The notes under the pieces: generated by a model
Told to the model about the DNA's origin: nothing
Seen by the model: only the letters and a program-made list of their open reading frames with translations
Database searches by the model: none
From: Clostridium sp.
GTDB taxonomy: Bacteria > Bacillota > Clostridia > Clostridiales > Clostridiaceae
Direction: 5' to 3'
Length of the DNA: 37,842 nucleotides
Assembly: GCA_031292145.1 (NCBI GenBank)
Contig: JARLHR010000224.1
Coordinates: forward strand, 1 to 37,842
Shown: one piece after another, positions 2,984 through 30,515 of the stretch
Numbering within the stretch: the first letter of the stretch is position 1
Layout: the number at the start of each line of letters is the position of its first letter
Program-made: the position numbers and the translations under genes

Positions 2984-3007
2984 GTTCCCTCCTGCATAAA
3001 TGGAATT

Positions 3008-3045: not shown

Positions 3046-3055
3046 TTTAAAATAT

Positions 3056-3084
3056 ATTATACCGTAAACAAAAACTATTTTAAA
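3056..3084 (-). promoter_or_regulatory. Promoter of the two-component operon
   Basis: Read on the minus strand, TATAAT (3061-3056) follows a weak -35 TTTAAA (3084-3079) at 17 bases. The perfect -10 in the gap between the permease and the regulator suggests internal transcription of the regulator-kinase pair. Confidence 0.5.
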
Positions 3085-3093
3085 CTTATCCCC

Positions 3094-5655: not shown

Positions 5656-5665
5656 GAGCTGCCTC

Positions 5666-6331: not shown

Positions 6332-6419
6332 TTTTCTTTCCCCCCGTTGTTCACTATAATTATATAATAAAGTTAAATTATTACTATATGGTTTAATCAT
6401 TTATGACAATTTTGTAATA

Positions 6420-6466
6420 AACAAAAAAAATAGCAGTTCCCATCAATATTGAGAATCTGCTATTTT
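6420..6466 (-). terminator. Rho-independent terminator of the RpiB-family gene
   Basis: On the minus strand AAAATAGCAGATTCTC pairs imperfectly with GGGAACTGCTATTTT and is followed by a run of eight T. It lies just after the isomerase stop codon at 6480. Confidence 0.8.
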
Positions 6467-6479
6467 ATAATCTATGCTT

Positions 6480-6950
6480 TTATATTTCAGATAACTTCTT
6501 TAAATGTTTTTCTGAAATTTCTTTTACCTTATTTACGCGTCTTGCGTATTTTTCAACATCTCCTGCATGGTCAATAGTCATCCATGTCTTAACAATTTCC
6601 ATTGCAATTGCTGAACCAATTATCTTGCCACCAATACAAAGTACATTCGTATCAGAATGTTCACGTGCTAAACTTGCACAAAATGGATCCTGACAAACAG
6701 CTGCATATATTCCATATATCTTATTTGCAATCATAGCACTACCATAACCAACTCCATCTACAAATATTCCTCTGTCAGCTTTTCCTTCTGCAACTGCCAT
6801 TGATGCTGGATAAATATAATCTGGTAAATCACAAGCATCTTCATTATGAGTTCCAAAATCTATTACCTCATGTCCTTGTGATTCTAAATATGCTTTTATT
6901 TCTTCCTTTAAGTTAAATCCTGCATGATCATTTGCCATAGCTATTTTCAT
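6480..6950 (-). CDS. RpiB/LacA/LacB-family sugar-phosphate isomerase, altered active site
   Basis: A 156-residue protein of the RpiB/LacAB fold. Asp8-His9 (NDHAGF), the anion-hole and phosphate loop (GVGYGSAMIANK, about 66-77) and the AREHSD segment (His98) are all present. In RpiB the loop normally reads GILICGTGIG, and its Cys acts as the base in the E. coli enzyme; here the same place reads GIFVDGVGYG, so Asp65 replaces the Cys. Mycobacterial RpiB uses an acidic base at a different site, so loss of the Cys need not mean loss of activity. Ribose-5-phosphate isomerase is therefore not certain; another aldose/ketose phosphate may be the substrate. A GGAGG site precedes the ATG. The gene is monocistronic. 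Confidence 0.8.
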   Translation of the reverse strand: MKIAMANDHAGFNLKEEIKAYLESQGHEVIDFGTHNEDACDLPDYIYPASMAVAEGKADRGIFVDGVGYGSAMIANKIYGIYAAVCQDPFCASLAREHSDTNVLCIGGKIIGSAIAMEIVKTWMTIDHAGDVEKYARRVNKVKEISEKHLKKLSEI

Positions 6951-7095
6951 AATATACCTCCAAGTTATATATCATTGTTATACTCTTATTGATAATTCCA
7001 AGTAGTTTTATATTTTTTCAATAACTCAAACTACCCTAAAAGTATAACATAGATATTTAATTATTAATATATTTCTCAAAATCAATTCTATATAA

Positions 7096-7737
7096 TTATG
7101 ATATTTTTATTTCCTTTGATATACTTTTTCTTTTAGAATACCATTTAGGGAACATGATAGAAAAAGCTATCATAAGAGGAGTTGAAATATTTCCATACGA
7201 AGTACTTATAGTATAATAAGTGCTTACTGATACAGAATTCAATAATATAATTCTTATTGCTGCTTGGCTAACAGTTAAAACACCCCATGCTATAGAAAGG
7301 AATCTACAAGTTGATTTAAATTTAAGACTATTTTTTATCTCTTCAGAAGCATTTTTTAAATAACTTTGTTCAATTATTATTTGAATTAGTGATCTTTTAA
7401 AAAACAAAGATCCAAAGAACATAATAGCAAGTAAAATGTCTTGCACTATTGGAGCTACTAAATAGAATGCAGGATTTTTTGAAACAATAGTTCCAATTAA
7501 TCCAATTCCAGCAAAAGCTGCACTCATTACTGCAAGAGCATTTAGCTTATGATCTTTAATATAATTGACACAGACTCCCCCTATGCTCCACACTCCTGAT
7601 AATACTATTCCTTCAAAAGTCATTCCATACTTATCTAATATTGAAAAAATTAAAATAGGAATTATAGCACTTACAACAAAATCCTTATTAAACACATTCT
7701 TGATTACTGAATTATTTCTATTTGACATCTTTTCCAT
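7096..7737 (-). CDS. Integral membrane protein, VC0807-like
   Basis: A 213-residue membrane protein with about five or six hydrophobic segments and a basic C-terminus (FPKWYSKRKS). The frame opens at 7764, but the AAGGGGG site near 7745-7751 sits about 8 bases before the ATG at 7737, so that start is preferred over the ATG at 7743. The pattern of short paired helices resembles the VC0807 family of unknown function; the assignment is tentative. It lies 17 bases after the flavoprotein gene and is the last member of the PadR-controlled operon, so it may act with the flavoprotein or be a detoxification partner. Confidence 0.65.
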   Translation of the reverse strand: MEKMSNRNNSVIKNVFNKDFVVSAIIPILIFSILDKYGMTFEGIVLSGVWSIGGVCVNYIKDHKLNALAVMSAAFAGIGLIGTIVSKNPAFYLVAPIVQDILLAIMFFGSLFFKRSLIQIIIEQSYLKNASEEIKNSLKFKSTCRFLSIAWGVLTVSQAAIRIILLNSVSVSTYYTISTSYGNISTPLMIAFSIMFPKWYSKRKSISKEIKIS

Positions 7738-7754
7738 TATCATTTCCCCCTTAA

Positions 7755-8456
7755 TTATTCCCAACTTGCATTTGCATTTTTAATATAAATTTCTGGATCA
7801 ATAACATCTTTATCAAGTATTGCTTGAGTCTCATCAGTTATGTGTCCTAATGTTACTACTTCTTTTCCTGCATTTTTTAATGCTAAAATATATGGCTCAA
7901 ATATTTCTTTTAACATATCATGACTTTTTACTCCTCCAAGTACTCCTCCTTGTCCAAACAGTATAGCTCCTGATAAATTTCCTTTTGTCATAACATTAAA
8001 AGTTTCTAATAGTCCTAAAAAATTATATTCTCCTGGAAAACCACAACTTGAAATCAAAACATTCTTAGTTGGAGATTCTTTTTGATAGCGTGTAGGATGA
8101 GTATATTTATCACCAACTTTTATTATTTCTCGTTTGCATAATGGAAGCTTGCGATCCATGAAGTCTTTCATTATACCTGTAACTGTAAAATAATATAATG
8201 GTGTAGCATAAACCATTATATCTACCTGTGATACTTTAATAAGCAATTCTTCCATATCATCTTTATGGATGCACTTTCCTGGAGTTTTAGTCCAACAAGT
8301 AAAGCATCCTATGCAATGATTTATATTTTTATCCTTGAGATATATTGTTTCTATTTCCGCTCCTGCTTCTTCACAACCTTTAAGAAATTGTTCTAAAAGT
8401 ACTTCTGTATTACCATTAGCCCCTCTTGGACTTCCATTTATAGCTAAAACCTTCAT
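7755..8456 (-). CDS. NADPH-dependent FMN reductase / iron-sulfur flavoprotein-like
   Basis: A 233-residue flavodoxin-fold oxidoreductase. The N-terminal MKVLAINGSPRGANGNTE is the FMN phosphate-binding loop. A cysteine cluster follows (CIGCFTCW then GKCIHKDDM, about residues 49-65), which resembles the iron-sulfur flavoprotein subgroup (CxxCxxC plus a fourth Cys). ATPLYYFTVTGIMKDFMDR is the usual isoalloxazine-contacting segment. A GAGGTGA ribosome binding site precedes the ATG. It is the second gene of an operon headed by a PadR repressor, an arrangement typical of inducible reductases for quinones, nitro compounds or other electrophiles; the actual substrate cannot be read from the sequence. 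Confidence 0.88.
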   Translation of the reverse strand: MKVLAINGSPRGANGNTEVLLEQFLKGCEEAGAEIETIYLKDKNINHCIGCFTCWTKTPGKCIHKDDMEELLIKVSQVDIMVYATPLYYFTVTGIMKDFMDRKLPLCKREIIKVGDKYTHPTRYQKESPTKNVLISSCGFPGEYNFLGLLETFNVMTKGNLSGAILFGQGGVLGGVKSHDMLKEIFEPYILALKNAGKEVVTLGHITDETQAILDKDVIDPEIYIKNANASWE

Positions 8457-8503
8457 TTATATCACCTCATCATAATATTTTATATACTTAACATTTAATT
8501 TTA

Positions 8504-9061
8504 TTAATCATCTATACCTTCTAATACTTTCATAGTCTCTTCACACCATTTTATTTTTCCCTCTTCATCTTGCTTTCCATATTGAAGAGTAATGCGCGAT
8601 AATGCTAAATTCTTCTTATCCCCCTTAATTATTCCTGAACTAAATAAATTATCAATTTCTAAATACTTTTGAAGATTTTTTTCACATTCTTCTTTAATTT
8701 CTCTAATTCGTTCAATAATATTTTTTACTGGTATATCTTTTGATAAAAATATTTTTAATAATAGTTCTGACCTAACAGGTTGCTTATCTATTGGGAGTAA
8801 GAGCCATTCATTTAACTCGTTTCTTCCTTGTTCAGTTATAGAATAAATATTTTTAGCTGGCCTTCCTTCTGTTTGCTTTACTTCTTTTGTTATTAATCCT
8901 TCTTCATCCATTTTTTGCAGTACAGGATATATATGCCCATAATTTTCATTCCAAAAATGTCCTATACTAGTATCGCAAACTTTCTTAATGTCATACCCAG
9001 AACCTGACATATTATTTAGAATTCCTAAAAGTGCGTATTTTGTTTTATTTACTTTTGCCAT
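8504..9061 (-). CDS. PadR-family transcriptional repressor
   Basis: A 185-residue protein with an N-terminal PadR winged helix (TKYALLGILNNMSGSGYDIK, then HIYPVLQKMDEEGLI and the GRPAKNIYSIT wing) and a C-terminal Vir-type dimerisation helix region. Family members repress their own operon and a linked detoxification gene until an aromatic or hydrophobic ligand binds. Two palindromes and a half-site lie directly upstream (9072-9125), and the half-site reaches the ribosome binding site, so autoregulation is very likely. It heads an operon with the flavoprotein and the VC0807-like membrane protein. Confidence 0.9.
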   Translation of the reverse strand: MAKVNKTKYALLGILNNMSGSGYDIKKVCDTSIGHFWNENYGHIYPVLQKMDEEGLITKEVKQTEGRPAKNIYSITEQGRNELNEWLLLPIDKQPVRSELLLKIFLSKDIPVKNIIERIREIKEECEKNLQKYLEIDNLFSSGIIKGDKKNLALSRITLQYGKQDEEGKIKWCEETMKVLEGIDD

Positions 9062-9071
9062 TTGAATTCAC

Positions 9072-9126
9072 CTCTGATATATTTCACTCTGATATATTAT
9101 ATTTAAATTATATCACTCTGATATAT
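9072..9126. promoter_or_regulatory. PadR operator array
   Basis: CTCTGATATAT occurs three times (9072-9082, 9087-9097, 9116-9126). Two copies complete palindromes: TATATCA-CTC-TGATATA at 9109-9125 is perfect, and TATTTCA-CTC-TGATATA at 9080-9096 has one mismatch. Their centres are 29 bases apart, close to three helical turns. The third copy is a half-site next to the padR ribosome binding site. This is the expected layout for cooperative repressor binding. Confidence 0.7.
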
Positions 9127-9191
9127 AAAGTCAATGCTTTTTTCAAATATTTACCAAAATCATAAAAATAGTACTTAATCTATCTTTATAA

Positions 9192-9779
9192 ATGCATAAA
9201 AAAGTATTGTTTCTTCTTGCCAATGGTTTTGAAGAAGTTGAGGCAAGTGTCTTTACAGCTGTTATAGGTTGGAATAAACTTGAAGGTGATGGGAGTACCG
9301 ATCTAGTAACAATAGGATTGCGTGACAAAATAAAATGTACTTGGAACTTCACAGTGATTACAGAAATGGATATTAATAATGTTAATATTGATGAATTTGA
9401 TGCACTTGCAATACTTGGTGGCTTTAAAGAAGCTGGATTTTATGAAGATGCTTACAATGAGGAGTTTTTGAATTTGATTAGAGAATTTGATAAGACGTGA
9501 AAAATAATAGCATCAATTTGTGTAGGATCACCTCCTATTGGAAAAAGTGGTGTATTATCAGAAAGAAACGCTACGACTTATAATTCTCCTACTAGTATTA
9601 GACAAAGGCAGTTAAAAGAATTTGGTGCAAATGTTATTAGTGATGAACCGATTGTTATAGATAAAAATATAATAACATCTTATAATCCCTCTACCGCATT
9701 TGGTGTAGCGTTTAAACTTTTAGAATTATTAACTTCTAAAGAAAACTGTGATAATGTTAAGGATTTAATGGGGTTTTAA
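9192..9779 (+). pseudogene. DJ-1/PfpI-family protein gene, interrupted by in-frame TGA
   Basis: Reading one frame from ATG 9192 to TAA 9777-9779 gives a full-length DJ-1/PfpI protein of about 195 residues, except for a TGA at 9498-9500. The N-terminal part has KKVLFLLANGFEEVEA, with the conserved Glu. After the stop the frame continues without a shift as KIIASICVGSPPIGKSGVL, holding the nucleophile-elbow Cys, and ends in a normal C-terminus (TSYNPSTAFGVAFKLLELL). The residue lost is normally Gly (D-K-x-G-K), so a single GGA to TGA change explains it. There is no ribosome binding site before the ATG, and a TAA lies directly before it. A recently dead gene is the best reading; a split functional N-terminal piece would lack the catalytic Cys. 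Confidence 0.8.
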
Positions 9780-9838
9780 AAAATAATATGGTCTAGATAC
9801 TTTTATATAATATTCTTCATACTTCAGCCATTAAATTA

Positions 9839-11866
9839 TCACCATACAGAAAGTAATCCCACTATTTCATTTTTATCATAGCTTTCCCTTATTCTTCTCA
9901 ATGTGTCGTCATTATGCAGAATGGAACTAAAATGCGAGAAAAAACTTTTTATAAAGTTTTTATCCTCCACCTTTAATGCTAGAAGAAATATAATATCAAC
10001 TTCTTCTTCTCCCCATTTAATTGGATCTTCTAATGTAATAATTGCTATACATGATTTTTTCACTAAGTTTTCAGCCCCATGAGGTATTGCAACTTTTTTT
10101 CCTACTGCTGTAGATGTAATTTTCTCTCTATCTAAAACTGAATTATTGAATCCATCTTGCACAAAGTCTTTTTCAATAAATATTTGTGATACTTTTGATA
10201 GTATATCTACTTTTGATTCAGCTTTTTCTTTTAAGAAAACCAAATCATCATAAAATAATTGCTCTGAATTATTTAATATTTTATTTTTATTTATATCTAA
10301 AATTGCTTTCTTCTTCTCAATACTTTTGATTAATTTTTTAATTTCAGTTAACTCCTCATCACTTATAAGTGGTGATATCTTAATTATTGGTTTATCATAG
10401 TCTTCTAAATATTCTATAGGAACAGTTGATATAATCGCATCAAACTTCTCCTTGTCTAACTCCTTTACATCAAGCATTGAATATGTTCCTAATACCTCTA
10501 TATTGGGTATTTGCTTAGAAATACTTGCTTCAACCAGTTGACTTGTTCCAATTCCGCTACTGCAAACAACTATAACTTTTGTACTTGTATCTAATCTCTC
10601 TAAAGCAGCACCAATATGCAAAACTATATATCCAAGCTCTTCTTCAGATACTTTTATATGGTAAAACTTTTCGAACAACGTGCTAGCAGCCCATGTAGCA
10701 CTAAAAATTGTAGAGAATTGGGTTTTTATCTCATTAATCAAAGGATTTCTTAAACTTAGACCATAAGTCATTCTATTTATTGCTGGTCTCAAATGTAGAA
10801 TTAATCCATTATACAGGTTTCTATCATTATTTAAATTATATCCTAATATATTGCTAACAAGGCTGATCAGCTCTTTTGTAAATGACTTTAGTTCATTATC
10901 AATGCCCTCAATTATTTCACCTTCATCACTAAATTGATCATTTTTTTGAATCTTTGCACCCAATATATGTAAAGCTAAATAAGCTGTTTCATTTTCTGTA
11001 AATGCTATATAAAGTTCATCTTTAAACTTACTTACCAGCCACTGTGCAGCTTTATATTCCTTTGTGCTTTTGAGCGACATAAGTTGTTCATCTTTAAATT
11101 CCAAATCCTTTTTATAGTTCAATCTTTTTATACTTATGGCAATGTGGACAAACAATCCTTCAAATGCCTCATCTGTTAAATGAAAATCTAATTTATCCTC
11201 AGCTTCTCTAAGTATTCTTTCTATTGCCACTAAGTCTATTTCCGGAACAAATTCCTTTACTTTTTTATAATATTTAGGATTCACTCTACTTTCATAATGC
11301 TCATTAGATTGCTCCATAATTGATTTTAAGTCCTCTTTATTTTTAAAAACAACCACTAATTCTGATGCGGCTTTTCTCAAATTCTTTTCTTCTCCAGATA
11401 TTTGCAAGCCATAATTTTGTTTCCTTATTAAGTTTAAATCAAATTTATTTAACCATTTCTCAACCTCATTAAGATCGTTATAAATTGTAGTCCTACTCAC
11501 ATATAACTCATTAGCTAAATTTTGCATTTTAACAATATCTATTGCTTGTATTAGCTGAGATATTATATAATATGTTCTTTCTTCAGCAGAAAATGGCTTG
11601 ATATATGATTTATCATTATGAATTATCTCTTTTAGATAATTAAGTTTCTCTTCACTACATTCAAGCCAAATTCCAACTCTAGATTTTTTCCTTATATTTA
11701 TGTCATCATAGTCTTTCAAAAAATCATCAAGTTCCTCTAAATCATATCTTATGGTTCTATTGGACACATCTAATTCCTCAGAGATTTTACCTATAGTTAT
11801 TGGTTGATTTTTATCTAATAATACTTTTAATATATTTTTACAACGTTCATTTATATATTGATTCAT
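9839..11866 (-). CDS. PRD-containing transcriptional activator with EIIB/EIIA modules (MtlR/LicR/ManR type)
   Basis: A 675-residue regulator. Domains in order: N-terminal HTH (about 8-60, SEELDVSNRTIRYDLEEL), a second Mga-like HTH (about 95-160), PRD1 (His241, His300), PRD2 (His358, His417), a gat/fru-type EIIB-like domain (phosphorylatable Cys435 in VVCSSGIGTSQ) and a C-terminal EIIA-type-2 domain (His596 in VAIPHGAEN). All phosphorylation sites are intact, so activity should depend on HPr and on the cognate PTS IIB/IIA. It follows the activase by 17 bases as the last gene of the glycyl radical operon and most likely activates that operon and the PTS operon next to it when substrate drains phosphate from the PTS proteins. 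It lacks an RNA-binding CAT domain, so it is a DNA-binding activator and not a BglG-type antiterminator. Confidence 0.92.
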   Translation of the reverse strand: MNQYINERCKNILKVLLDKNQPITIGKISEELDVSNRTIRYDLEELDDFLKDYDDINIRKKSRVGIWLECSEEKLNYLKEIIHNDKSYIKPFSAEERTYYIISQLIQAIDIVKMQNLANELYVSRTTIYNDLNEVEKWLNKFDLNLIRKQNYGLQISGEEKNLRKAASELVVVFKNKEDLKSIMEQSNEHYESRVNPKYYKKVKEFVPEIDLVAIERILREAEDKLDFHLTDEAFEGLFVHIAISIKRLNYKKDLEFKDEQLMSLKSTKEYKAAQWLVSKFKDELYIAFTENETAYLALHILGAKIQKNDQFSDEGEIIEGIDNELKSFTKELISLVSNILGYNLNNDRNLYNGLILHLRPAINRMTYGLSLRNPLINEIKTQFSTIFSATWAASTLFEKFYHIKVSEEELGYIVLHIGAALERLDTSTKVIVVCSSGIGTSQLVEASISKQIPNIEVLGTYSMLDVKELDKEKFDAIISTVPIEYLEDYDKPIIKISPLISDEELTEIKKLIKSIEKKKAILDINKNKILNNSEQLFYDDLVFLKEKAESKVDILSKVSQIFIEKDFVQDGFNNSVLDREKITSTAVGKKVAIPHGAENLVKKSCIAIITLEDPIKWGEEEVDIIFLLALKVEDKNFIKSFFSHFSSILHNDDTLRRIRESYDKNEIVGLLSVW

Positions 11867-11883
11867 CGCCGCACCTTCTCTAA

Positions 11884-12726
11884 CTAATAACCACCAACTA
11901 TGCCTATTAGTGATTGACTTTCAATAAATTCCCTTGCCTTTAATATTTCTTCATCACTAAGGGGTTTTAAATCATATAATTTATATTCCTTACCTATAGC
12001 TTTATATTTTGAGCTTCCATATTGATGAAAAGGTAATATATGCACTTCCTTTATACCAAAAGGTCTTATAAAGTTAATTATATCCTGTATATTCTCCTTA
12101 TCATCAGTATATCCATGTATTAAAGGTAACCTAGGAATTATTTTCACACCAGTCTTTATTGAAAATTCAAAGTTTTTTTTCATTAAATCTATATCTTGAT
12201 TAATTATAGTTTTTGCTTTTTCCCTATTCATAATCTTAAAATCCCATAGTATTGTATCAATATATTTTGTCATTTCTAATAATATTTTAGTATCTCCAAT
12301 ACCTGTGGTTTCTATAGCTGTATTTATACCAAACTTTTTTATTTCTTTTAATAAATTTAAAGCAAATTCTCCTTGTGAAAGAACCTCTCCTCCTGAAAGT
12401 GTTACACCACCACCTGTAGTTTCATAGAATGCAATATCCTTCTTCACTTCCTCTATAACTTCATTAATTGTATATTCTTTTCCAACAACTTCTAAAGCAT
12501 TTGTGGGACAGTCCTCTGGATTTGCTGCACATTGGAAACAATCATCACTAACACAGTTAATACACAAACTGTGTTTTCTTATTATTTGTGGCTTAAAATT
12601 TTGTGACTCTGGATTTGAGCACCATGGGCATCCAAGCGGACACCCTTTAAAAAATATAACAGTTCTTATTCCTCCACCATCATGAAGGCTATATCTTTGT
12701 ATATTAAAAATCAAAGCTTTTTCCAT
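11884..12726 (-). CDS. pflC: Glycyl radical enzyme activating protein (PflC-type radical SAM)
   Basis: A 280-residue radical SAM enzyme. The SAM cluster motif CxxxCxxC is at Cys29, Cys33 and Cys36 (GCPLGCPWC). A ferredoxin-like insert follows with Cys55, Cys58, Cys63, Cys66 and Cys73, able to hold an auxiliary Fe-S cluster, as in activases of dehydratase-type glycyl radical enzymes. The SAM-binding GGGVTLSGGE is at 105-114. It would abstract a hydrogen from Gly739 of the neighbouring PflD-type enzyme under anaerobic conditions. The gene starts 11 bases after the pflD stop, with its ribosome binding site inside the end of pflD, which indicates tight coupling. The symbol follows the E. coli pair pflDC, supported by the partner identity. 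Confidence 0.9.
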   Translation of the reverse strand: MEKALIFNIQRYSLHDGGGIRTVIFFKGCPLGCPWCSNPESQNFKPQIIRKHSLCINCVSDDCFQCAANPEDCPTNALEVVGKEYTINEVIEEVKKDIAFYETTGGGVTLSGGEVLSQGEFALNLLKEIKKFGINTAIETTGIGDTKILLEMTKYIDTILWDFKIMNREKAKTIINQDIDLMKKNFEFSIKTGVKIIPRLPLIHGYTDDKENIQDIINFIRPFGIKEVHILPFHQYGSSKYKAIGKEYKLYDLKPLSDEEILKAREFIESQSLIGIVGGY

Positions 12727-12737
12727 AAAATCACATC

Positions 12738-15029
12738 CTAAAATGTATGTTCAGTTCTACTTATAATATCATTTTGTATTGATTTATCTAACTCTACAAA
12801 TATAGCGCTATAACCTGCAACTCTAACAACCAAGTTTTGATACTTTTCAGGATACTTTTGCGCATCTTTTAAAGTGTCTGCTGAAACAACATTAAACTGA
12901 ATATGCTGTATCTTAAGTCTGCTAAATGCTTGAATATAACCAACTAATTTATTTAAACCCTGTTCACCTTCCAGTGTAGCTGGAGAAAACTTTACGTTTA
13001 GTAAACTTCCATTGGAAGTTAAGTAATTGTCTAATTTACTTACACTTTTCAAACTAGCAGTTGGTCCCATTTTGTCCCTGCTAACCATAGGTGATAGCCC
13101 TCCATCTGCAAGCTGTTCTCTAGCCATTCTGCCGTCAGGTGTAGCTCCTACTGCTTCTCCAAGGGGTATGTGTGCTGAAACAGTATATGATCCTGGTTGG
13201 AATATTCCCCCTCTGACATTCTTATATTTTTCAACTTCCTGAGAATAATAAGATAAAATCTCTGCTCCTAATTTATCTACTTCATCAATATCATTACCAT
13301 ACTTAGCATACTTATTAATAAATCTTTGCCTTAAGATTTCATTTCCTTCCCAGTTTTTATTTAATATTTCCACTAAGCTTTCTAATGAAATTTGCTTTTC
13401 ATCATATACATATTTTTTTATTACATATAACGAATCACTTAAATTTGGTGCGCCAATACCTTGAACCCCTGAAAAGTTATATATAGCTCCACCTTCTGTT
13501 ACATCTTTTCCATTTTCTGTGCAGCCTGCAATGAAGTTTGATAAAAATGGTGTGGGTGCACATTCCTTATGAGCTGTATCTACAATATTAGAACCTTCAA
13601 CCATATCTTTAATATATTTTGAAATGTTTACTTTTATAGCTTTTAATAAAGATTCAAATGTTTCATAGTTCTTTGGATTTTCATTTAAAGTAACTTCCAT
13701 AGTTTTTAATAAGTTAAATAAAGCAATATCATGAAGACCATAGGTTTTTCCAGGAATAGAAAGTTCAACACATCCTACTACTGCATAATCTCTTGAATCT
13801 TTCAAAGAAACTCCCCTATTTGCATAGGCTAATATGTTTACTTCATCATTAAATACTTGAGGCATACCAGTTCCTAATCTAATAATTTCGGCAGCCTTTA
13901 TTAAAAAATCTCTTGGTGAGTTTTCACCAACACGAATACTTAAATTTGGTTGAGGAAGTTTTATTTCTCCTAAAATATCTAGCATTATATAAGATAAATC
14001 ATTGGTAATATCCTTACCATTTTCATCTACACCCCCAAGTACAATTGTATATCCTATAGGGAAGCCTGCAAAATACCTAGCACTTTCTGTACTTCTAAGT
14101 GCGACTATCGTATTAAACTTTATATAAAGTGCTCTAAGTAATTCTTTAAGAAATTCTATATCTTCACCATTTTCTAATGATCTCTTAAAATATGGATACA
14201 TGTATTGATCAAAACGCCCTGGTGAGATAGAACTAGCATTTGATTCATGTTGAAAAATTAAACTTATATACCAAAATAATTGTACTGCTTCATAAAAGTT
14301 TTCAGTTTTTTCACTAGCTACCTTGTAAGAAATTCTTGAAATTTCTTCAAGCTCTGCTTTTCTTTTTGAACTACTCTCCTTTTCAGCCATTGCTTTAGTT
14401 AATTTTCCATGACGTATTATATAATCCCTTGATGCTTCTAAAGAAATTAACGCTGCCTTATAGAAATTGTTTTGAGGATTTTGTTTTACTTTTACATTCA
14501 TTTCCTCTATCATAGTTCCAAGACCCTTGCTAAAAATAATTTCATAGTCAGGAATTATATGGCCTTGCCCTTTATCTGTTTGATTTAATGCAACTATCTT
14601 AGTTTTTGTAGTTTTCTTTATATGTTCAGGAATTGCAGCATTACAGTAATCCTTTAATGATTTTCCTTTCCAATAAGGGTATAATTCTTCTTTAAAACAT
14701 GTTTTATTATCTTCAAATATCTCAAACTTATCTTGAGGTCTTGTTGGAAACTCCTCCAACTCATCTAGAATCCAATAAGGAGACATTTCTGGAGAAATAA
14801 CACCAGCACGTGGTTTTGCAGTTCTATCCCCTATAATAAGTTCACCTGACTTAATATTTATTTCAACTTTATTTAATATATTGGCTAAAGCCTTTGCTCG
14901 TCTAACTATTACAGGCTCTCCTTCTGTCTGCTTCCAACTTTCAGTGTAAAGCTTAGCTCTTTCAAGAGATATTTGTCTTTTTTCCTTAAAAAGTTCTTCT
15001 TTTAATTTTTCAATTCTCTCACTTAGCAT
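12738..15029 (-). CDS. pflD: PflD-type glycyl radical enzyme, probable 1,5-anhydrohexitol-6-phosphate ring-opening lyase
   Basis: A 763-residue glycyl radical enzyme, almost the length of E. coli PflD (765). The thiyl Cys420 lies in VVGCVELSIPGKTYGLHD with the general-base Glu422, and the radical Gly739 lies in RVAGYSA near the C-terminus. From memory of E. coli PflD, many stretches are nearly identical, including NQTDKGQGHI, RFDQYM, RYFAGFP.GY and GCVELSIPG.TYGLHDIA.FN, so this is an ortholog and not a formate lyase or glycerol dehydratase (which read GCVEP). E. coli PflD was reported to open the ring of 1,5-anhydromannitol-6-phosphate to 1-deoxyfructose-6-phosphate. The frame opens at 15056, but ATG 15029 follows a GGAGGG site and is chosen. 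The neighbouring PTS and FSA genes supply the rest of that pathway. Confidence 0.9.
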   Translation of the reverse strand: MLSERIEKLKEELFKEKRQISLERAKLYTESWKQTEGEPVIVRRAKALANILNKVEINIKSGELIIGDRTAKPRAGVISPEMSPYWILDELEEFPTRPQDKFEIFEDNKTCFKEELYPYWKGKSLKDYCNAAIPEHIKKTTKTKIVALNQTDKGQGHIIPDYEIIFSKGLGTMIEEMNVKVKQNPQNNFYKAALISLEASRDYIIRHGKLTKAMAEKESSSKRKAELEEISRISYKVASEKTENFYEAVQLFWYISLIFQHESNASSISPGRFDQYMYPYFKRSLENGEDIEFLKELLRALYIKFNTIVALRSTESARYFAGFPIGYTIVLGGVDENGKDITNDLSYIMLDILGEIKLPQPNLSIRVGENSPRDFLIKAAEIIRLGTGMPQVFNDEVNILAYANRGVSLKDSRDYAVVGCVELSIPGKTYGLHDIALFNLLKTMEVTLNENPKNYETFESLLKAIKVNISKYIKDMVEGSNIVDTAHKECAPTPFLSNFIAGCTENGKDVTEGGAIYNFSGVQGIGAPNLSDSLYVIKKYVYDEKQISLESLVEILNKNWEGNEILRQRFINKYAKYGNDIDEVDKLGAEILSYYSQEVEKYKNVRGGIFQPGSYTVSAHIPLGEAVGATPDGRMAREQLADGGLSPMVSRDKMGPTASLKSVSKLDNYLTSNGSLLNVKFSPATLEGEQGLNKLVGYIQAFSRLKIQHIQFNVVSADTLKDAQKYPEKYQNLVVRVAGYSAIFVELDKSIQNDIISRTEHTF

Positions 15030-15121
15030 TACATACCCTCCAAACTTACTATTCATATTAATCTTGCCGAATGCTAACTAATAAGAATATTAATTTTCTT
15101 CATTCGTCTTATTTTCGCCTA

Positions 15122-15991
15122 TTACTTAAAATTTAATTTGTATTCTTTTATACATTTTGTTAATCCATCTTTAGTTGTTGAAAATTCAAGTCCATGTTTT
15201 CTTGATTTCTCTGTATTTAACCTTACATCTCTTGGACAATCTTTGTACTTTTCCTCATCTTTAACTAAAACTTCGTTTATTCTATTTTCTAATCCCATTT
15301 CAGTTAAAATGTGTTTTACTACTTCATATCTACTTAATTCATTAACACTTCCTAAATGATAAGTATCATATGGTAACCCGAATAATTTTTCAACATTCTC
15401 AACCATTTCAACTGCATAAGTCATCCCTCTAAATTCATTAGGAGAAGCATATATTTTTTCACCCTTTAATAAAGAAGTTATAGTTTCCCATAATACATTT
15501 GCAGCCATATTCATTTTTCTTTCTGTCATTCCAAACAGCCATGTAAATCTTACTATCCATAATTCATCTATGATTTCTTTTAACAATCCTTCTGCTTCCA
15601 ACTTGTTTTGACCATATACTGTATCCGGGACTGGTGTATGTTCTTCATCATATGGCCCTGGCTCTTTATTTCCGTTAAACACTTGCTCTGAACTTATAAA
15701 TACAAGCTTTGCGCCAATTTCCTTGCAAGCTTTTGCTACATTAACAGCTCCATCAACATTAATTTTATGAGCAATTTCCGGATTCTTATTACAAAAATCT
15801 GTTACAGCTATAGCTGCTGCATGTATAACATAATCAGCCTTAAATTCACTAAAAACTTTAAAAACATTTTCTTTATCTGTAATATCTAAATTATCTTTAT
15901 CCGTTGAAAGAATTTCGTACTCATTATTAAATTTTTGAGCAAATCTCGCACAAAAAAATCCTAAACCACCTGTTAATAATATTTTTTTCAT
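15122..15991 (-). CDS. Extended SDR, RmlD-like NAD(P)-dependent sugar reductase/dehydratase
   Basis: A 289-residue Rossmann-fold protein of the RmlD-like extended SDR type. The N-terminal motif is ILLTGGLGFFCARF (third Gly of the usual GxxGxxG replaced), followed by the LDITDKENV, VIHAAA and DVRLNTEKS signatures. Catalytic residues appear as SSEQVF (Ser) and the YGQNK Tyr/Lys pair. The frame opens at 16006, but the ATG at 15991 follows GGAGG by 8 bases. It is the first gene of the operon holding pflD, pflC and the regulator, 92 bases before pflD, so it probably handles the same substrate. No dTDP-rhamnose genes are near. Its reaction is not known; oxidation, reduction or epimerisation of a 1,5-anhydrohexitol or its phosphate is a reasonable guess. 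Confidence 0.8.
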   Translation of the reverse strand: MKKILLTGGLGFFCARFAQKFNNEYEILSTDKDNLDITDKENVFKVFSEFKADYVIHAAAIAVTDFCNKNPEIAHKINVDGAVNVAKACKEIGAKLVFISSEQVFNGNKEPGPYDEEHTPVPDTVYGQNKLEAEGLLKEIIDELWIVRFTWLFGMTERKMNMAANVLWETITSLLKGEKIYASPNEFRGMTYAVEMVENVEKLFGLPYDTYHLGSVNELSRYEVVKHILTEMGLENRINEVLVKDEEKYKDCPRDVRLNTEKSRKHGLEFSTTKDGLTKCIKEYKLNFK

Positions 15992-16053
15992 TAATAATTC
16001 CTCCATTTATTGTTTATAATTATTTTCACCTTACTTTTTATCCTTTTGTATTG

Positions 16054-16152
16054 TTTAATCTTATTTTATACTACAAATAATAATTTTTCAATACTTATAG
16101 TAAAATATTATGCTATTTTTTATCATTGTTTATTCTTTAATCTTGTTTCATA
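16054..16152. promoter_or_regulatory. Two copies of a TTTAATCTTGTTTYATA motif upstream of the SDR-pflD operon
   Basis: TTTAATCTTATTTTATA at 16054-16070 and TTTAATCTTGTTTCATA at 16136-16152 lie in the same orientation, 82 bases apart. A third copy (CTTAATCTTGTTCTATA, 20046-20062) overlaps the promoter of the UPF0303 gene. The last two also match in the preceding ten bases (TTGTYTATT). The first copy covers the predicted -10 of the SDR operon, while the second sits about 45 bases upstream of the -35. They look like binding sites of one regulator. Confidence 0.5.
16063..16091 (-). promoter_or_regulatory. Promoter of the SDR-pflD-pflC-regulator operon
   Basis: On the minus strand TTGAAA (16091-16086) and TAAAAT (16068-16063) are separated by 17 bases, about 70 bases before the SDR ATG. 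One copy of the repeated motif overlaps the -10. Confidence 0.5.
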
Positions 16153-16264
16153 ACTTAATTAATCTTATTAATTTTCAATCAAAAGAGAACTATATATTTA
16201 TAGGTATAGTTTTAAAACAAAAAAACAACATAAATGATTGATACAAATTTTCCATTATTTTAAA

Positions 16265-16305
16265 AGTTAAAAGTACCATTCCCACACAGAATGGCACTTT
16301 TGTAA
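16265..16305 (-). terminator. Terminator of the PTS operon
   Basis: AAAAGTACCATTC (16269-16281) pairs with GAATGGCACTTTT (16289-16301) with one mismatch. On the minus strand T-rich sequence follows. It separates the IIC gene from the SDR-pflD operon, so the two units are transcribed independently. Confidence 0.75.
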
Positions 16306-16352
16306 CTTAATAATATTCCTTAATATAGCTATTACATTTTGTTATTATTATT

Positions 16353-17426
16353 TTAACCTAATTCTATATCTAACTCTATATCTTGGTCTTCTTGAGACTC
16401 AACAGTTTCTTTTGCAGGTTTCTTTAATACTGCTATTAATGTTGCTCCTACTGCAGTTCCTACTGCTAAAGCGATTACATAACCTACCATATTAGTTATT
16501 GCTGGTAATACTATTAATCCACCCCAAGCAACTTTATTTGTTACATGTAGTAAAGCTGCAACTGAACATCCAACTGCTGAACCTATCATATTTGCAGGTA
16601 TAACTCTTAGCGGATCAGCTGCTGCAAAAGGGATTGCTCCTTCTGTTATTCCTATAAGTCCCATTAAGAATCCAGCCTTGCCAGCTTCTCTTTCCTCTGC
16701 TGTAAATTTCTTAGCTGCTATAAATGTAGCTACTCCAACGCTTAATGCAGGAACTGCCACACCAACAGAGTTAATACCAGCTATGTTATAATTGCCATTT
16801 GAAACAGCCATTATAGTAAAGGCAAAAGCAACCTTATTTACTGGTCCACCCATATCAAAAGCATCCATTGCTCCCATTATACACGCAAGAAGAACTATAC
16901 TTCCTCCACTTAATGAATTTAAGAAATCAGTTAAACCTTTAGTAATACCTGATATTGGTAAACCTATAACCCATTGCATTAAACCTGCAGTTATAAAAGT
17001 ACCTATAATTGGAATGATAAATATTGTCATCAAAGATGATATTGATCTTGGTAATTTTATTTTCTTAAGATAGAAAACGACTACACCACCTATCAACCCA
17101 GCTGCTAATGCGCCTAAGAATCCAGCTCCCATTTGATTACCTACTGCAGCTGCAATTGCCGCTGGTGCAATGGCTGGTCTGTCAGCAATAGAAAAAGCAA
17201 TAAATCCAGCAAGTATTGGAATCATTAATTCAAATCCTCTTACCCCAATAAAGAATAACTCATATAAAAATTGATGTGTTTCTTTATCAGGTACAGCGCC
17301 TTGTCCATATAATACGACAGATAATGCAAGAAGTATACCACCACCAACAACGAAAGGAATCATATAGGATACACCTGACATAAGATGTTTTCTAGTGTCT
17401 TTAAAAATACATTTTAATTCATTCAT
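16353..17426 (-). CDS. PTS fructose-subfamily transporter subunit IIC
   Basis: A 357-residue polytopic membrane protein with the fructose-type EIIC signature GITEGAIPFAAADPLRVIP near residues 258-276 and a typical N-terminus (HLMSGVSYMIPFVVGGGILLAL). IIB and IIA are separate genes in the same operon, so this is a three-part permease like the FrwBC/Frv class and not a IIABC fusion. The frame opens at 17441, but ATG 17426 follows a GGAGGAATTA site. The C-terminus is acidic (ESQEDQDIELDIELG). It is the last gene of the operon, followed by a terminator. The substrate is predicted from context to be a 1,5-anhydrohexitol; a fructose-like sugar is the family default. Confidence 0.9.
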   Translation of the reverse strand: MNELKCIFKDTRKHLMSGVSYMIPFVVGGGILLALSVVLYGQGAVPDKETHQFLYELFFIGVRGFELMIPILAGFIAFSIADRPAIAPAAIAAAVGNQMGAGFLGALAAGLIGGVVVFYLKKIKLPRSISSLMTIFIIPIIGTFITAGLMQWVIGLPISGITKGLTDFLNSLSGGSIVLLACIMGAMDAFDMGGPVNKVAFAFTIMAVSNGNYNIAGINSVGVAVPALSVGVATFIAAKKFTAEEREAGKAGFLMGLIGITEGAIPFAAADPLRVIPANMIGSAVGCSVAALLHVTNKVAWGGLIVLPAITNMVGYVIALAVGTAVGATLIAVLKKPAKETVESQEDQDIELDIELG

Positions 17427-17544
17427 GATTAATTCCTCCATAAATTCATTTTTTTAGAAGTTTAGTAATTAATAATAGATAATGGCTTTTTATTAGAATT
17501 ATATTTTAAATAAATATTATTAGTTTATTTTAGGCTTATGAATT

Positions 17545-17853
17545 CTAACCCAATTTCTCTATTAATTTTTTTATTATTCCATCTGCTTTCTTTAAGCAAT
17601 CTCCAGTACTAACTCTTACAATTGGTTTTCCTTTAAATCTCTCTTCATTTTTTATACCAATATCATTAGTTAATATAACAACATTTGCTTCTGCTATTTC
17701 CTTTGCTGTTAGCTCATTTTCAATTCCTATAGAGCCTTGAGTTTCTACTTTTATGTCTACATTATTTTTCTTTGCTGCTATTATTAAAGATTCTGCTGCT
17801 AAATATGTGTGTGCAACTCCTGATGGACATGCTGTAATTGCTACTATTTTCAT
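17545..17853 (-). CDS. PTS fructose-subfamily subunit IIB
   Basis: A 102-residue stand-alone IIB domain. The phosphorylatable Cys9 is in the canonical ITACPSGVAHTY loop, and VETQGSIG follows at about 37-44, as in FruA/Frw IIB domains. A GGAGGAA site precedes the ATG. It lies between the epimerase and IIC genes and would pass phosphate from IIA (His65) to the incoming substrate, giving the 6-phosphate. It may also phosphorylate the PRD regulator of the neighbouring operon. Confidence 0.93.
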   Translation of the reverse strand: MKIVAITACPSGVAHTYLAAESLIIAAKKNNVDIKVETQGSIGIENELTAKEIAEANVVILTNDIGIKNEERFKGKPIVRVSTGDCLKKADGIIKKLIEKLG

Positions 17854-17879
17854 AATATATTCCTCCTAAGCATTTTAAT

Positions 17880-18542
17880 TTAGTATATTAATTTTTTAAT
17901 ACAATCAATTTTTTTCATATAACTGCCATCAGCACTGTTAAATAAAGAAGAAGTTCCTAAAACTAAAACATTTGCTCCCGCTGAAACAGTCAATGGTATG
18001 GTATTAGTATTTATATTTCCATCCACCTCAATAAGAAGGCTTGGATTATGTTTTAACGACATTCCTTTAATTTCCTTGATCTTATCAATAGTTTCATAAA
18101 TAAAACTTTGCCCTTCAAAACCTGGATCAACAGTCATAACAAGTATCATATCAACATACTTCAAAACATGTTGAACTATACAGACTGGTGTTGATGGGTT
18201 TATAGCTATTGATGCTTTCATCCCTAATTCTTTAATCCTTTTAATAGTTCTATGCATATTTTTAGTTCTTTCTACGTGTACAGAAACCATATCAACACCA
18301 ATTGAAGCTAGTATATCCAAGTATCTTTCAGGTTCCATAACTGCTAAATGTATATCTAGTGGAATTTTTGTTGCTCTTTTTATTGCTTTTATTAAATAAA
18401 AACCCATTGCTAAATTATCCACATATTGACCATCCATTACATCACAATGAAGCATATCTATACCACATTCTTCAAGATGTCTTAATTCTTTTTCAACATT
18501 AAGTGGATCTGCACACATAATTGACGGTGCTATTTTAATCAT
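17880..18542 (-). CDS. Ribulose-phosphate 3-epimerase family (possible hexulose-6-phosphate 3-epimerase)
   Basis: A 220-residue TIM-barrel protein of the Rpe/AlsE family: IAPSIMCADPLNVEKEL at the N-terminus, metal-binding CDVMDGQYV (His of the usual MDGHFV is Gln here), LDIHLAVMEPERY, and MTVDPGFEGQSFI with the catalytic Asp. Rpe normally has MDGHFVPN and DVHLMV, so the substitutions in the substrate loops suggest a different pentulose or hexulose phosphate, as in D-allulose-6-phosphate 3-epimerase. It lies between the aldolase and IIB genes of the PTS operon, so a 3-epimerisation that turns a 1-deoxyhexulose-6-phosphate into one the aldolase accepts would make sense; this is inference. A GGGAGTG site precedes the ATG. 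Confidence 0.85.
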   Translation of the reverse strand: MIKIAPSIMCADPLNVEKELRHLEECGIDMLHCDVMDGQYVDNLAMGFYLIKAIKRATKIPLDIHLAVMEPERYLDILASIGVDMVSVHVERTKNMHRTIKRIKELGMKASIAINPSTPVCIVQHVLKYVDMILVMTVDPGFEGQSFIYETIDKIKEIKGMSLKHNPSLLIEVDGNINTNTIPLTVSAGANVLVLGTSSLFNSADGSYMKKIDCIKKLIY

Positions 18543-18575
18543 ATGTTACACTCCCTAATTATTAGATTAGTTACT

Positions 18576-19247
18576 TTAGCTGTTAGTTTTTACGCCTTTA
18601 CCAAATACATTTTCCCAATCCTCTATGAATTTATCCACACTCCAATCAGTTAATGGATGTTCCATCATAGCTTTAGCTATATCTGGTGGAATAGTTACAC
18701 TATGAACACCAACTTTCATAAGTTCAATAACTTGTTGGGCATTTTTGAAGCTAGCTGCTAAAACTTTAGTATTAAATTTGTATCTATCAATTATTTCAAC
18801 TAAGTTTTTAACAGTACCTACACCATCTGCAGATATGTTATCCAATCTATTTACATATGGAGCTACATAATCAGCCCCTGCTTTTGCTGCTAAGAACCCT
18901 TGATGAGCTGTGAATATTGCTGTAGCAGTAATTTTAATTCCTTGTTTCTTTAGTTCTTTAATAGCTCTTAAGCCATCACTTGTCACAGGAATTTTTACAT
19001 ACATGTTCTTGCGAAGACTACTGATAAATAAAGCTTCTTCAAGTATTTCTTCAAATTTAGTGCTTAACACCTGAGCATGTATAGGGGTATCTTCTCCTAC
19101 TACTTCATCAATTTCTTTTATTAAATCTATAAATTTCTTCTTTTCTTTTGAAACGATGGTTGGATTAGTTGTAACTCCATCTATTGGTAATATGGTGTAT
19201 AATTTCTTTATTTCTTTTACATTGCCTGTATCTAATATTAATTGCAT
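18576..19247 (-). CDS. Fructose-6-phosphate aldolase (FSA/TalC family)
   Basis: A 223-residue class I aldolase that aligns with E. coli FsaA without gaps through residue 131. The Schiff-base Lys85 is in MYVKIPVTS. Gln59 (HAQVLS) is the residue that marks FSA rather than true transaldolase (Glu there), and Tyr131 (VAPYVNR) is the FSA general acid/base. FSA cleaves fructose-6-phosphate, and prefers 1-deoxy or dihydroxyacetone/hydroxyacetone donors, so it suits cleavage of 1-deoxyfructose-6-phosphate to glyceraldehyde-3-phosphate and hydroxyacetone. It often carries the label transaldolase, which the residues argue against. A GGAGGAAG site precedes the ATG; it sits 28 bases after the IIA gene. 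Confidence 0.9.
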   Translation of the reverse strand: MQLILDTGNVKEIKKLYTILPIDGVTTNPTIVSKEKKKFIDLIKEIDEVVGEDTPIHAQVLSTKFEEILEEALFISSLRKNMYVKIPVTSDGLRAIKELKKQGIKITATAIFTAHQGFLAAKAGADYVAPYVNRLDNISADGVGTVKNLVEIIDRYKFNTKVLAASFKNAQQVIELMKVGVHSVTIPPDIAKAMMEHPLTDWSVDKFIEDWENVFGKGVKTNS

Positions 19248-19275
19248 TCTTCTTCCTCCTCATTGTTAAATCTAT

Positions 19276-19728
19276 TTATATTACTGAATTTATTAAATCA
19301 ACTAGTTCTTCTTCATTTTCAATAGAATTTAGTGCATTATTAAAATCTTCATGTAATAGCTTTCTTGATATAGCAGCTAGAATTCTTAAATGTTCATTAC
19401 ACGAATCTCCATCTGAAGGAACTGCTAATAAAAATATTATTTTTACCGGTTCTTCATCTAAAGAATTCCATTCTATACCTTTTTTATATCTACCAAAAGC
19501 TACTGTTGGAATTTTAACTGCTGGTGACTTTCCATGAGGTATTGCAATACCCAACCCTATTCCTGTAGTGCTCTGTTCCTCTCTATTAAAAACTTCTTCA
19601 ACATACTCATCATAATTTAAAAGTCTTCCTTCAGATTCAATTAATTTAGCTAGTTCAATAATCGCTTCATCTCTTGTTGAAGAGTTCAAGTTTAGCTTTA
19701 TGAGATTTTTATTTAATAAGTCTTTCAT
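19276..19728 (-). CDS. PTS fructose-subfamily subunit IIA
   Basis: A 150-residue EIIA type-2 domain. The phospho-acceptor His65 lies in GLGIAIPHGKSP, with EWNSLDEEPVKIIFLLAVP downstream as in fructose/mannitol IIA. It is the first gene of the five-gene PTS operon (IIA, FSA, epimerase, IIB, IIC). The ATG is preceded by GAGGAGAGGGG. It takes phosphate from HPr and hands it to IIB; the C-terminal IIA-like domain of the PRD regulator is its paralog. Confidence 0.92.
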   Translation of the reverse strand: MKDLLNKNLIKLNLNSSTRDEAIIELAKLIESEGRLLNYDEYVEEVFNREEQSTTGIGLGIAIPHGKSPAVKIPTVAFGRYKKGIEWNSLDEEPVKIIFLLAVPSDGDSCNEHLRILAAISRKLLHEDFNNALNSIENEEELVDLINSVI

Positions 19729-20035: not shown

Positions 20036-20064
20036 TTGTCTATTTCTTAATCTTGTTCTATAAT
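20036..20064 (+). promoter_or_regulatory. Promoter of the UPF0303 gene with shared regulatory motif
   Basis: TTGTCT (20036-20041) and TATAAT (20059-20064) are separated by exactly 17 bases. The motif CTTAATCTTGTTCTATA (20046-20062) fills the spacer and the -10; it also occurs twice upstream of the SDR-pflD operon. Confidence 0.65.
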
Positions 20065-20108: not shown

Positions 20109-20579
20109 ATGAATAATTTAGAAACACAGTTAAATGAAATTGAAAAACAAGAAAAAGAACTCCAATTTACCAAATTCAATAATTCTATCGCTTTAGATCT
20201 TGGACTTATGCTTGTTGAAAACGGGAAAAAACCAAATAAACCAATTTCAATAGATATAACCAAGAATAGTCACCAGCTGTTTCATTATTCCTTTGAAGGA
20301 AGCTCACCAGATAATGATGAATGGATAAAAAGAAAAAATAATGTAGTTAATAGATTTTATAGAAGTTCCCTATATGTTGGCTTAAAATTAAAGATTGCAA
20401 ATAAATCTATTGAGGAAAAATATCTTTTATCTCCATTAGAATATGCCCCTTATGGAGGTGCATTTCCAATAATTGTTGAAAATGTAGGGGTAATAGGTAC
20501 TATAACAGTATCAGGTTTAAGTCAAGAAGAGGATCATAATTTGGTAACAGAGACTATAGGAAAATACCTAAAACTTTGA
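20109..20579 (+). CDS. UPF0303 / heme-degrading-domain (GlcG/HbpS-like) protein
   Basis: A 156-residue protein of the UPF0303 group, a branch of the GlcG/HbpS-like heme-degrading domain family (PF03928). Conserved stretches are SPDNDEWIKRKNNVVNRF, SSLYVGLKL, APYGGAFPI and GTITVSGLSQEEDH. The frame is open five codons upstream, but ATG 20109 follows GGAGG (20098-20102). The family is often found near sugar or polyol catabolic operons, but its biochemical role is not settled. It is divergent from the PTS operon, and its promoter carries the same motif as the SDR-pflD control region, so it is probably part of the same regulon. Confidence 0.85.
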   Translation: MNNLETQLNEIEKQEKELQFTKFNNSIALDLGLMLVENGKKPNKPISIDITKNSHQLFHYSFEGSSPDNDEWIKRKNNVVNRFYRSSLYVGLKLKIANKSIEEKYLLSPLEYAPYGGAFPIIVENVGVIGTITVSGLSQEEDHNLVTETIGKYLKL

Positions 20580-20711: not shown

Positions 20712-20766
20712 AAGTTCAACTAAATTCAGATGTAGTTTTATACTCCAGCTGAATTTAGTTGAACTT
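20712..20766. repeat. 18-bp perfect inverted repeat
   Basis: AAGTTCAACTAAATTCAG at 20712-20729 is exactly complementary to CTGAATTTAGTTGAACTT at 20749-20766, with a 19-base loop. No T tract follows on the plus strand, so a simple terminator for the UPF0303 gene is doubtful. It directly abuts the GC-rich patch at 20775-20860 and may be one part of the same element. Confidence 0.7.
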
Positions 20767-20860: not shown

Positions 20861-20893
20861 TTAATGTCATACTATCTGGAAAGGAGTATTCAA

Positions 20894-21655
20894 TTGTTTG
20901 CTGAAGAGAGATTACAAGAAATCATTAAAATACTTAAATTAGAAGGAAAACTTAAAGTTAAAGATATTAGTACAAAATTTAATGTAACTGAAGATTGTAT
21001 ACGAAAAGATTTAAAAAACTTAGAAAAACAAGGTCATTTAAAAAGAACATATGGTGGTGCTGTTCAAATAAGAGAATCTGCCCACGAGCAAGATATTGTT
21101 TTAAGAAAGGAAGTTAATATATCAACTAAGACTACTATAGCAAAAAAAGCCTTTCAGATTATTGAAAACCGTGAAACTATTTTTTTAGACATTTCTACAA
21201 CTAATATAATACTAGCAAAACTTCTATCAGAAAGTACCAAAAACTTAACAGTTGTTACAAATATGCCTGAAATTATTAACATACTTTCTAATAAAAACAA
21301 TATAACTGTAATATGTCCTGGGGGAGTATTAAATAAAAATATTGGTGGCTTTGCTGGTGCTTCAACCATCGATTTTATTTCCAGGTATAAATTTGATAAA
21401 ACCTTTATAGGAAGTTGTGGCATTGATGTTTTTGATAGAAATATTACGACCTTTGATATAGAAGATGGAATCACAAAAAAAGCTATTATTCAATCTAGCA
21501 AGAAAAATTATATAGTTATGGAAAAACATAAATTTAATTATGATGGAAATTACAAATTTGCAACCTTAGATGATGTCAACTGTATAATAACAGATAGTAT
21601 ACCAACAGATGAGATAAAGAATATTATAGAAGAATTAAATATTGAATTAATTTAA
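20894..21655 (+). CDS. DeoR-family transcriptional regulator
   Basis: A 253-residue regulator with an N-terminal DeoR HTH (AEERLQEIIKILKLEGKLKVKDISTKFNV in segments, then EDCIRKDLKNLEKQG) and a C-terminal sugar-phosphate sensing DeoRC domain (LDISTTNIILAKLL, VVTNMPEI, GSCGIDVFD). The frame opens at 20864, but the TTG at 20894 follows AAAGGAG by a normal distance and gives the usual MFAEERLQ start, so it is chosen. It stands alone, downstream of a GC-rich patch that may be an insertion remnant. Its target may be sugar-phosphate catabolic genes in this window or elsewhere. The 3' end runs into a family A palindrome. Confidence 0.9.
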   Translation: MFAEERLQEIIKILKLEGKLKVKDISTKFNVTEDCIRKDLKNLEKQGHLKRTYGGAVQIRESAHEQDIVLRKEVNISTKTTIAKKAFQIIENRETIFLDISTTNIILAKLLSESTKNLTVVTNMPEIINILSNKNNITVICPGGVLNKNIGGFAGASTIDFISRYKFDKTFIGSCGIDVFDRNITTFDIEDGITKKAIIQSSKKNYIVMEKHKFNYDGNYKFATLDDVNCIITDSIPTDEIKNIIEELNIELI

Positions 21656-30512: not shown

Positions 30513-30515
30513 GTG

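Follow-up and report, generated by a model that had tools for sequence, protein, structure and literature searches.

A probable PflD-type anhydroglycolysis locus in Clostridium and its RmlD-like candidate accessory

Organization of the locus

The stretch of DNA analysed here (the window: 37,842 nucleotides of Clostridium sp., contig JARLHR010000224.1 of assembly GCA_031292145.1) carries nine co-oriented genes on the minus strand, from position 19728 down to 9839, which probably form a PflD-type anhydroglycolysis locus. Read in that direction, they encode the EIIA component of a phosphoenolpyruvate:sugar phosphotransferase system (PTS), a fructose-6-phosphate aldolase (FSA), an Rpe-family protein, EIIB, EIIC, an RmlD-like short-chain dehydrogenase/reductase (SDR), a glycyl radical enzyme (GRE), its radical S-adenosylmethionine (SAM) activase, and a regulator with PTS regulation domains (PRD) (Table 1). 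A gap of 346 bp separates EIIC from the second unit, the remaining gaps between the nine genes being 11-103 bp, and because the long gap contains a terminator-like hairpin, a reading as two units is reasonable. With a GRE that scores 1197 bits against a family cut-off of 1109 and nine genes so closely spaced and facing one way, the locus is, as judged from its sequence, far beyond chance.

An earlier note on this DNA had described two adjacent units, which holds as anatomy. Every gene that it named lies on the minus strand where it had been placed, and Pfam and NCBIfam agree on IIA, IIB, IIC, the radical-SAM activase and the PRD/EIIB/EIIA regulator. The residues that it singled out are also there, those of FSA (Table 1) as well as Cys420 and Gly739 of the GRE, which are correct in the 763-residue numbering; the longest open reading frame (ORF) has 772 residues, and the 763-residue start at 15029 is preferred for its better ribosome-binding site. 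Right in its core, the earlier inventory overlooked the Rpe-family and SDR genes, by both of which the locus differs from E. coli.

Table 1. Features of the locus and its divergent neighbors, in window coordinates
Feature	Coordinates	Strand	Basis and remarks
PTS fructose-type EIIA	19276..19728	-	TIGR00848 above cut-off; PF00359
Fructose-6-phosphate aldolase (FSA)	18576..19247	-	TIGR00875 above cut-off; Gln59, Lys85, Tyr131; 42% identity to E. coli FsaA and FsaB
Ribulose-phosphate / allulose-6-phosphate 3-epimerase family (Rpe family), unit 1	17880..18542	-	TIGR01163 236 bits vs cut-off 212.6
PTS EIIB	17545..17853	-	NF007783 above cut-off; 66% identity to E. coli FrwB
PTS EIIC	16353..17441	-	NF007787 above cut-off; 57% identity to E. 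coli FrwC
Terminator-like hairpin between the two units	16276..16294	.	Consensus match only
RmlD-like extended SDR reductase, first gene of unit 2	15122..16006	-	PF04321; TIGR01214 141.1 bits, below cut-off 224.05
PflD-type GRE	12738..15056	-	NF007437 1196.8 bits vs cut-off 1109; Cys420, Gly739
GRE activase (radical SAM)	11884..12726	-	TIGR02494 above cut-off; 43.5% identity to E. coli PflC
PRD / EIIB-like / EIIA transcriptional regulator	9839..11866	-	PF00874 twice, PF05043, PF02302, PF00359
DeoR-type operator-like motif, reference copy, upstream of SDR	16126..16148	+	23 bases
Operator-like motif, second copy	16044..16066	+	4 mismatches to reference copy
Operator-like motif upstream of EIIA and HbpS-like gene	20036..20058	+	4 mismatches to reference copy
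HbpS-like protein, divergent	20109..20579	+	PF03928; NF002696 above cut-off
DeoR-family regulator, divergent	20864..21655	+	DeoR-family gene in 30/49 sampled PflD loci

Identity of the glycyl radical enzyme

The GRE passes the NCBIfam equivalog model NF007437, which among 14 control genomes matches in E. coli only. Its closest solved structures by sequence are E. coli PflD 8yjo (1017 bits), then 8id0 (979), glycerol dehydratase 1r8w (675) and YbiW (439); a literature search on the nearest-structure codes turned up nothing relevant. In an 89-row tree, built by a quick method that flagged YbiW and certain others among its rows as long branches, the window enzyme falls inside a 56-row PflD clade (SH-aLRT, the approximate likelihood ratio support, 99) with YbiW outside, in line with the orthology to PflD that the earlier note had proposed. 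Columns shared by 54 or more of its 55 companions in the PflD clade number 235; the enzyme keeps 234 of these, departing from one with Ser659 for Gly, and it keeps all 19 columns that are confined to PflD (absent from the 30 non-PflD GREs aligned). It is 60% identical to E. coli PflD and 38% to E. coli YbiW; this identity and the separate clade led us to reject YbiW. Position 275 (SNASS) failed as a discriminating mark, the C74 paralog group being SNASS as well. We regard the window GRE, from these comparisons, as a PflD ortholog and not merely a formate acetyltransferase.

At E 1e-250, 24 of 194 sampled Clostridiaceae genomes have a PflD match (23 of them above the family cut-off); in the window's own genus, a GRE match at E 1e-150 occurs in 26/68 genomes, but PflD orthologs by identity are confined to the window genome and a second one (74%), the rest reaching at most 47%. 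Elsewhere, YbiW-type and PflD-type enzymes lie adjacent with one FSA between them (L149 of G096, 2585-11000), and in Vibrio variabilis (L083, 12300-13200) the PflD activase seems to be split over two ORFs, as if frameshifted.

A putative anhydroglycolysis pathway

Anhydroglycolysis was reportedly described only in 2024, and the E. coli pathway is said to include FSA and 1,2-propanediol steps. A review (PMC12441222, citing Ma et al. 2024, JACS 146:26187) has a PTS make the 6-phosphate in E. coli, whereupon YbiW cleaves 1,5-anhydroglucitol-6-phosphate and PflD 1,5-anhydromannitol-6-phosphate, both yielding 1-deoxyfructose-6-phosphate. From orthology to the enzymes reported in E. coli, we infer substrate, product and physiology of the window locus. 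The FrwBC-like PTS would take up and phosphorylate a 1,5-anhydrohexitol; the radical-SAM enzyme would activate PflD, which would open the ring of 1,5-anhydromannitol-6-phosphate to give 1-deoxyfructose-6-phosphate; and FSA would split the latter into glyceraldehyde-3-phosphate and hydroxyacetone. The PTS and the FSA-type aldolase fit such import and cleavage, the core set (GRE, activase, PRD, EIIA, FSA, EIIC, EIIB) forms one operon also in genome G082 (L152), and by homology the assignment to anhydroglycolysis is well supported.

The earlier note had likewise posited import and fermentation of a 1,5-anhydrohexitol, for which the PflD ortholog, the PTS and FSA speak and the absence of a GldA-type gene does not. 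For the end product that it thought probable, 1,2-propanediol, the locus holds no dedicated gene: the best match to E. coli GldA in the window genome is 27% identical, so that there is no close GldA. Standard family names do obscure the locus, since formate acetyltransferase, transaldolase and dTDP-4-dehydrorhamnose reductase are all misleading labels within this one operon. The E. coli pathway is already in print, however, and the window PflD locus adds another member to a known kind, obscured by annotation alone.

An RmlD-like reductase linked to PflD

The new part of the locus is the SDR, which its distribution marks as an accessory of the PflD branch that crosses lineages. Counting as close those copies with at least 58% identity, the SDR occurs in 16/24 PflD-positive versus 6/170 PflD-negative Clostridiaceae genomes (Fisher 4e-13, shared ancestry not corrected). 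The 16 genomes with both span five genera, and the SDR gene lies inside the PflD locus in 12 of them and elsewhere in G093, G128, G147 and G201. A scan for named PflD loci confirmed 274 places, and among the best 80 an SDR at 54-68% identity is present in 14 (Clostridium species, Geosporobacter, Marinisporobacter, three Vibrio, Photobacterium, cut by a contig end, and Pseudovibrio), weaker copies (32-44%) in five more, and none in the enterobacterial loci. The YbiW branch looks different: YbiW-type enzymes (E 1e-210) are present in 39/194 genomes, 27 of them without PflD, and a close SDR accompanies just one of these 27 (G092), any SDR match at E 1e-50 three; none was found in the 20 clostridial YbiW loci fetched of the 39. 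No report of a PflD-linked SDR was found in the literature searched, which did not take in the primary E. coli anhydroglycolysis paper.

The AlphaFold model of the SDR has a predicted local distance difference test score (pLDDT) of 92.2, and its fold is a sugar-ketone reductase fold. Among solved structures, Trichomonas vaginalis RmlD 9gpi comes nearest (template-modelling score, TM, 0.85-0.87, 33-36% identity for its chains), followed by bacterial RmlD. That the T. vaginalis protein (9gpi / 9gsc) is nearer to the window SDR than the listed bacterial RmlD structures perhaps reflects a laterally acquired gene. Ser105, Tyr131, Lys135, Arg193, Arg259 and Arg262 are invariant in 15 aligned copies, and the three arginines are possible phosphate ligands. 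We rejected the idea that the SDR is the rhamnose enzyme of this genome: it scores below the RmlD cut-off (Table 1) and lies outside an rml cluster, and a true rmlD, picked up by a 32% match, sits with rmlA, rmlB and rmlC on C75 (L256; gene names assigned by eye).

Other genes also recur near PflD. Counted in a sample of 49 of the fetched loci, a DeoR-family regulator is found in 30, a Gfo/Idh/MocA oxidoreductase in 11, mannose-6-phosphate isomerase in 10, 1-phosphofructokinase in 9 and an HbpS-like protein in 8. Three of the PflD-linked Gfo/Idh proteins were scanned, with levoglucosan dehydrogenase as the top model at a score well below cut-off; the gene is in neither the window nor the E. 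coli pflD locus.

Regulatory elements

A 23-base motif, which we take to resemble DeoR-family operators, stands upstream of both units (Table 1). Over 35 upstream regions of GRE or SDR genes at other loci, its best match averages 6.1 mismatches, where dinucleotide shuffles give 8.4 (Wilcoxon 4.5e-7, without correction for related loci); taken singly, 21 of these regions reach p 0.05, and the motif was not seen in those of L149, L152, L052 and L081. The PRD protein, as activator, and a DeoR protein, as repressor, probably control the operon. A CcpA-like consensus has no match in the window.

Predicted role of the reductase and its alternatives

We posit, with a probability of about 0.3, that the PflD branch has a conserved and unrecognised upstream module in which the RmlD-like SDR, or elsewhere a Gfo/Idh enzyme, turns a keto-anhydrosugar, most simply PTS-imported 1,5-anhydrofructose, into the PflD substrate. 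With NADH, the SDR would reduce a keto precursor (in the simplest case 1,5-anhydrofructose-6-phosphate) to 1,5-anhydromannitol-6-phosphate, and would thereby extend the diet of the cell to 1,5-anhydrofructose; that it reduces a keto form of this kind is a tentative prediction. Because the PflD and YbiW branches share all steps past 1-deoxyfructose-6-phosphate and the SDR is tied to the PflD branch, an upstream step fits better. The known 1,5-anhydrofructose reductase yields 1,5-anhydromannitol, as stated in PMC12441222. A reductase that travels with PflD, and hardly ever with YbiW, points to a natural origin of 1,5-anhydromannitol; if the proposal is true, many PflD loci would in nature serve to use starch-derived 1,5-anhydrofructose rather than the scarce 1,5-anhydromannitol, and the SDR would represent a new function within the RmlD family.

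Several observations weigh against this proposal. The known reductase belongs to the Gfo/Idh/MocA family, not to the SDRs, and the PflD-linked Gfo/Idh protein has no close copy in the window genome (best 26%). A close SDR was not found in 8 of the 24 PflD-positive genomes, and at the looser family cut-off of E 1e-50 the SDR family is present in 18/24 PflD-positive and 28/170 PflD-negative genomes. The upstream-step argument presumes that the two branches are otherwise alike. Six genomes have a close SDR without PflD (G197, G174, with its copy at a contig end, G152, G132, G092 and G007); in the last four the gene stands alone, without an evident pathway, and the SDRs of G152 and G132 are among the nearest kin of the window SDR (up to 73% identical). 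Such stand-alone copies suggest that the role of the SDR may be wider than a purely PflD-related one. The Rpe-family gene was found in the window and only one other of the 49 sampled PflD loci, and so we assign it no firm role; it falls below the cut-off of the allulose-6-phosphate epimerase model and is a second copy in the window genome, 44% identical to the other (on C143). One of the six genomes (G197; L193, 8944-12415) has remnants of PflD-like and YbiW-like GREs next to SDR and FSA genes that are intact, which looks like decay of both GREs.

The main rival casts the SDR as a hydroxyacetone reductase that stands in for GldA and yields 1,2-propanediol. The window genome's lack of a close GldA agrees with it, as do the counts, which likewise tell against an upstream role: GldA (at least 50% identity to the E. 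coli protein) is present in 3/16 PflD-positive genomes with the SDR versus 6/8 without it (Fisher 0.013), against a base rate of 30/170 in PflD-negative Clostridiaceae genomes. Since these counts favor replacement, we keep the idea in play, as an unlikely but serious one. The difference weakens to p 0.055 once two genera are collapsed, and the 50% cut-off was chosen post hoc (at 45%, 6/16 versus 6/8, p 0.10). YbiW-positive, PflD-negative genomes need the same step, yet the SDR is in 1/27 and GldA in 9/27 of them, and outside the Clostridiaceae a GldA match, in one case a fragment where a contig begins, accompanies the close SDR in four of six genomes.

We consider it comparably doubtful that the SDR accompanies PflD fortuitously, be it as a bystander or as a reductase for general metabolite repair. 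Its stand-alone orthologs, lacking PflD or an obvious pathway context, are what a bystander would leave; however, at least three SDR-PflD gene orders (SDR upstream, downstream and divergent) occur across Bacillota and Pseudomonadota, and the operator-like motif is also upstream of SDR modules separated from PflD, with 5 mismatches in G147 (shuffle p ~0.02) and more weakly in G201 (p 0.13).

Less probable again is epimerization, in which the SDR, by itself or together with a Gfo/Idh enzyme, would convert 1,5-anhydroglucitol-6-phosphate to the manno form via a 2-keto intermediate and so let a cell without YbiW use the commoner anhydroglucitol. The window genome indeed has no YbiW match at E 1e-210, and both SDR and Gfo/Idh genes recur near PflD, but a Gfo/Idh ortholog of the PflD-linked kind was not found in this genome, and 9 of the 16 genomes with PflD and the SDR also have YbiW, hence no need of such a detour. 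Finally, the standard annotation, which would make the locus a PTS operon for pentose or fructose and its GRE an ordinary pyruvate formate-lyase, can draw on the Rpe-family and transaldolase-family genes in the PTS unit and on the family name formate acetyltransferase, but it is very hard to sustain for a GRE that scores 140 bits as true pyruvate formate-lyase against 1197 for the PflD model and keeps the 19 PflD-only residues, next to an aldolase whose residues are of the FSA type, not the transaldolase type.

Flanking sequences

A short way downstream of the operon, and separate from it, lies a sugar-phosphate isomerase gene of the RpiB/LacA/LacB family (6480-6950; above the RpiB cut-off). 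A short DJ-1/PfpI-family ORF of 102 residues (9192-9500) covers only model positions 1-90 of 165 and looks truncated. A dispersed non-coding repeat at 20690-20870 matches the genome 22 times, itself included, and has no Rfam family match; it contains an inverted-repeat part (20712-20766), and its tail is richer in GC. The window as a whole has no Rfam match at gathering scores, and its sigma-70-like sites are no commoner than in shuffles (64 versus 67.9). The same window encodes a GH3 glycosidase (24809-27067), a BspA-type leucine-rich repeat protein with choline-binding repeats (28490-30175) and a GH8 protein (30513-31694).

Comparison with known systems

The closest known counterpart is the manno branch of E. 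coli, pflDC-frwBCD-ptsA-fsaB-gldA, which has the same core steps and corresponding proteins that are 60% (PflD), 43.5% (activase), 66% (FrwB), 57% (FrwC) and 42% (FSA) identical to those of the window. The two loci differ in their periphery: the window has a separate EIIA where E. coli has the PtsA fusion, lacks FrwD and GldA, carries PRD and DeoR regulators in place of YijO, and has the additional Rpe-family and SDR genes. The anhydroglucitol branch of E. coli (YbiW / ybiY / fsaA) uses a related GRE, 38% identical, and both branches feed FSA, but YbiW belongs to a clade separate from that of the window GRE, and its clostridial loci, in the 20 fetched, are without the SDR. RmlD, the dTDP-4-dehydrorhamnose reductase, shares its fold and catalytic Ser/Tyr/Lys with the window SDR, which in contrast falls below the TIGR01214 cut-off and is not part of an rml cluster. 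Sinorhizobium morelense has a 1,5-anhydrofructose reductase (PDB 2glx) that reportedly produces 1,5-anhydromannitol; it is not homologous to the SDR, and its Gfo/Idh family recurs near PflD elsewhere.

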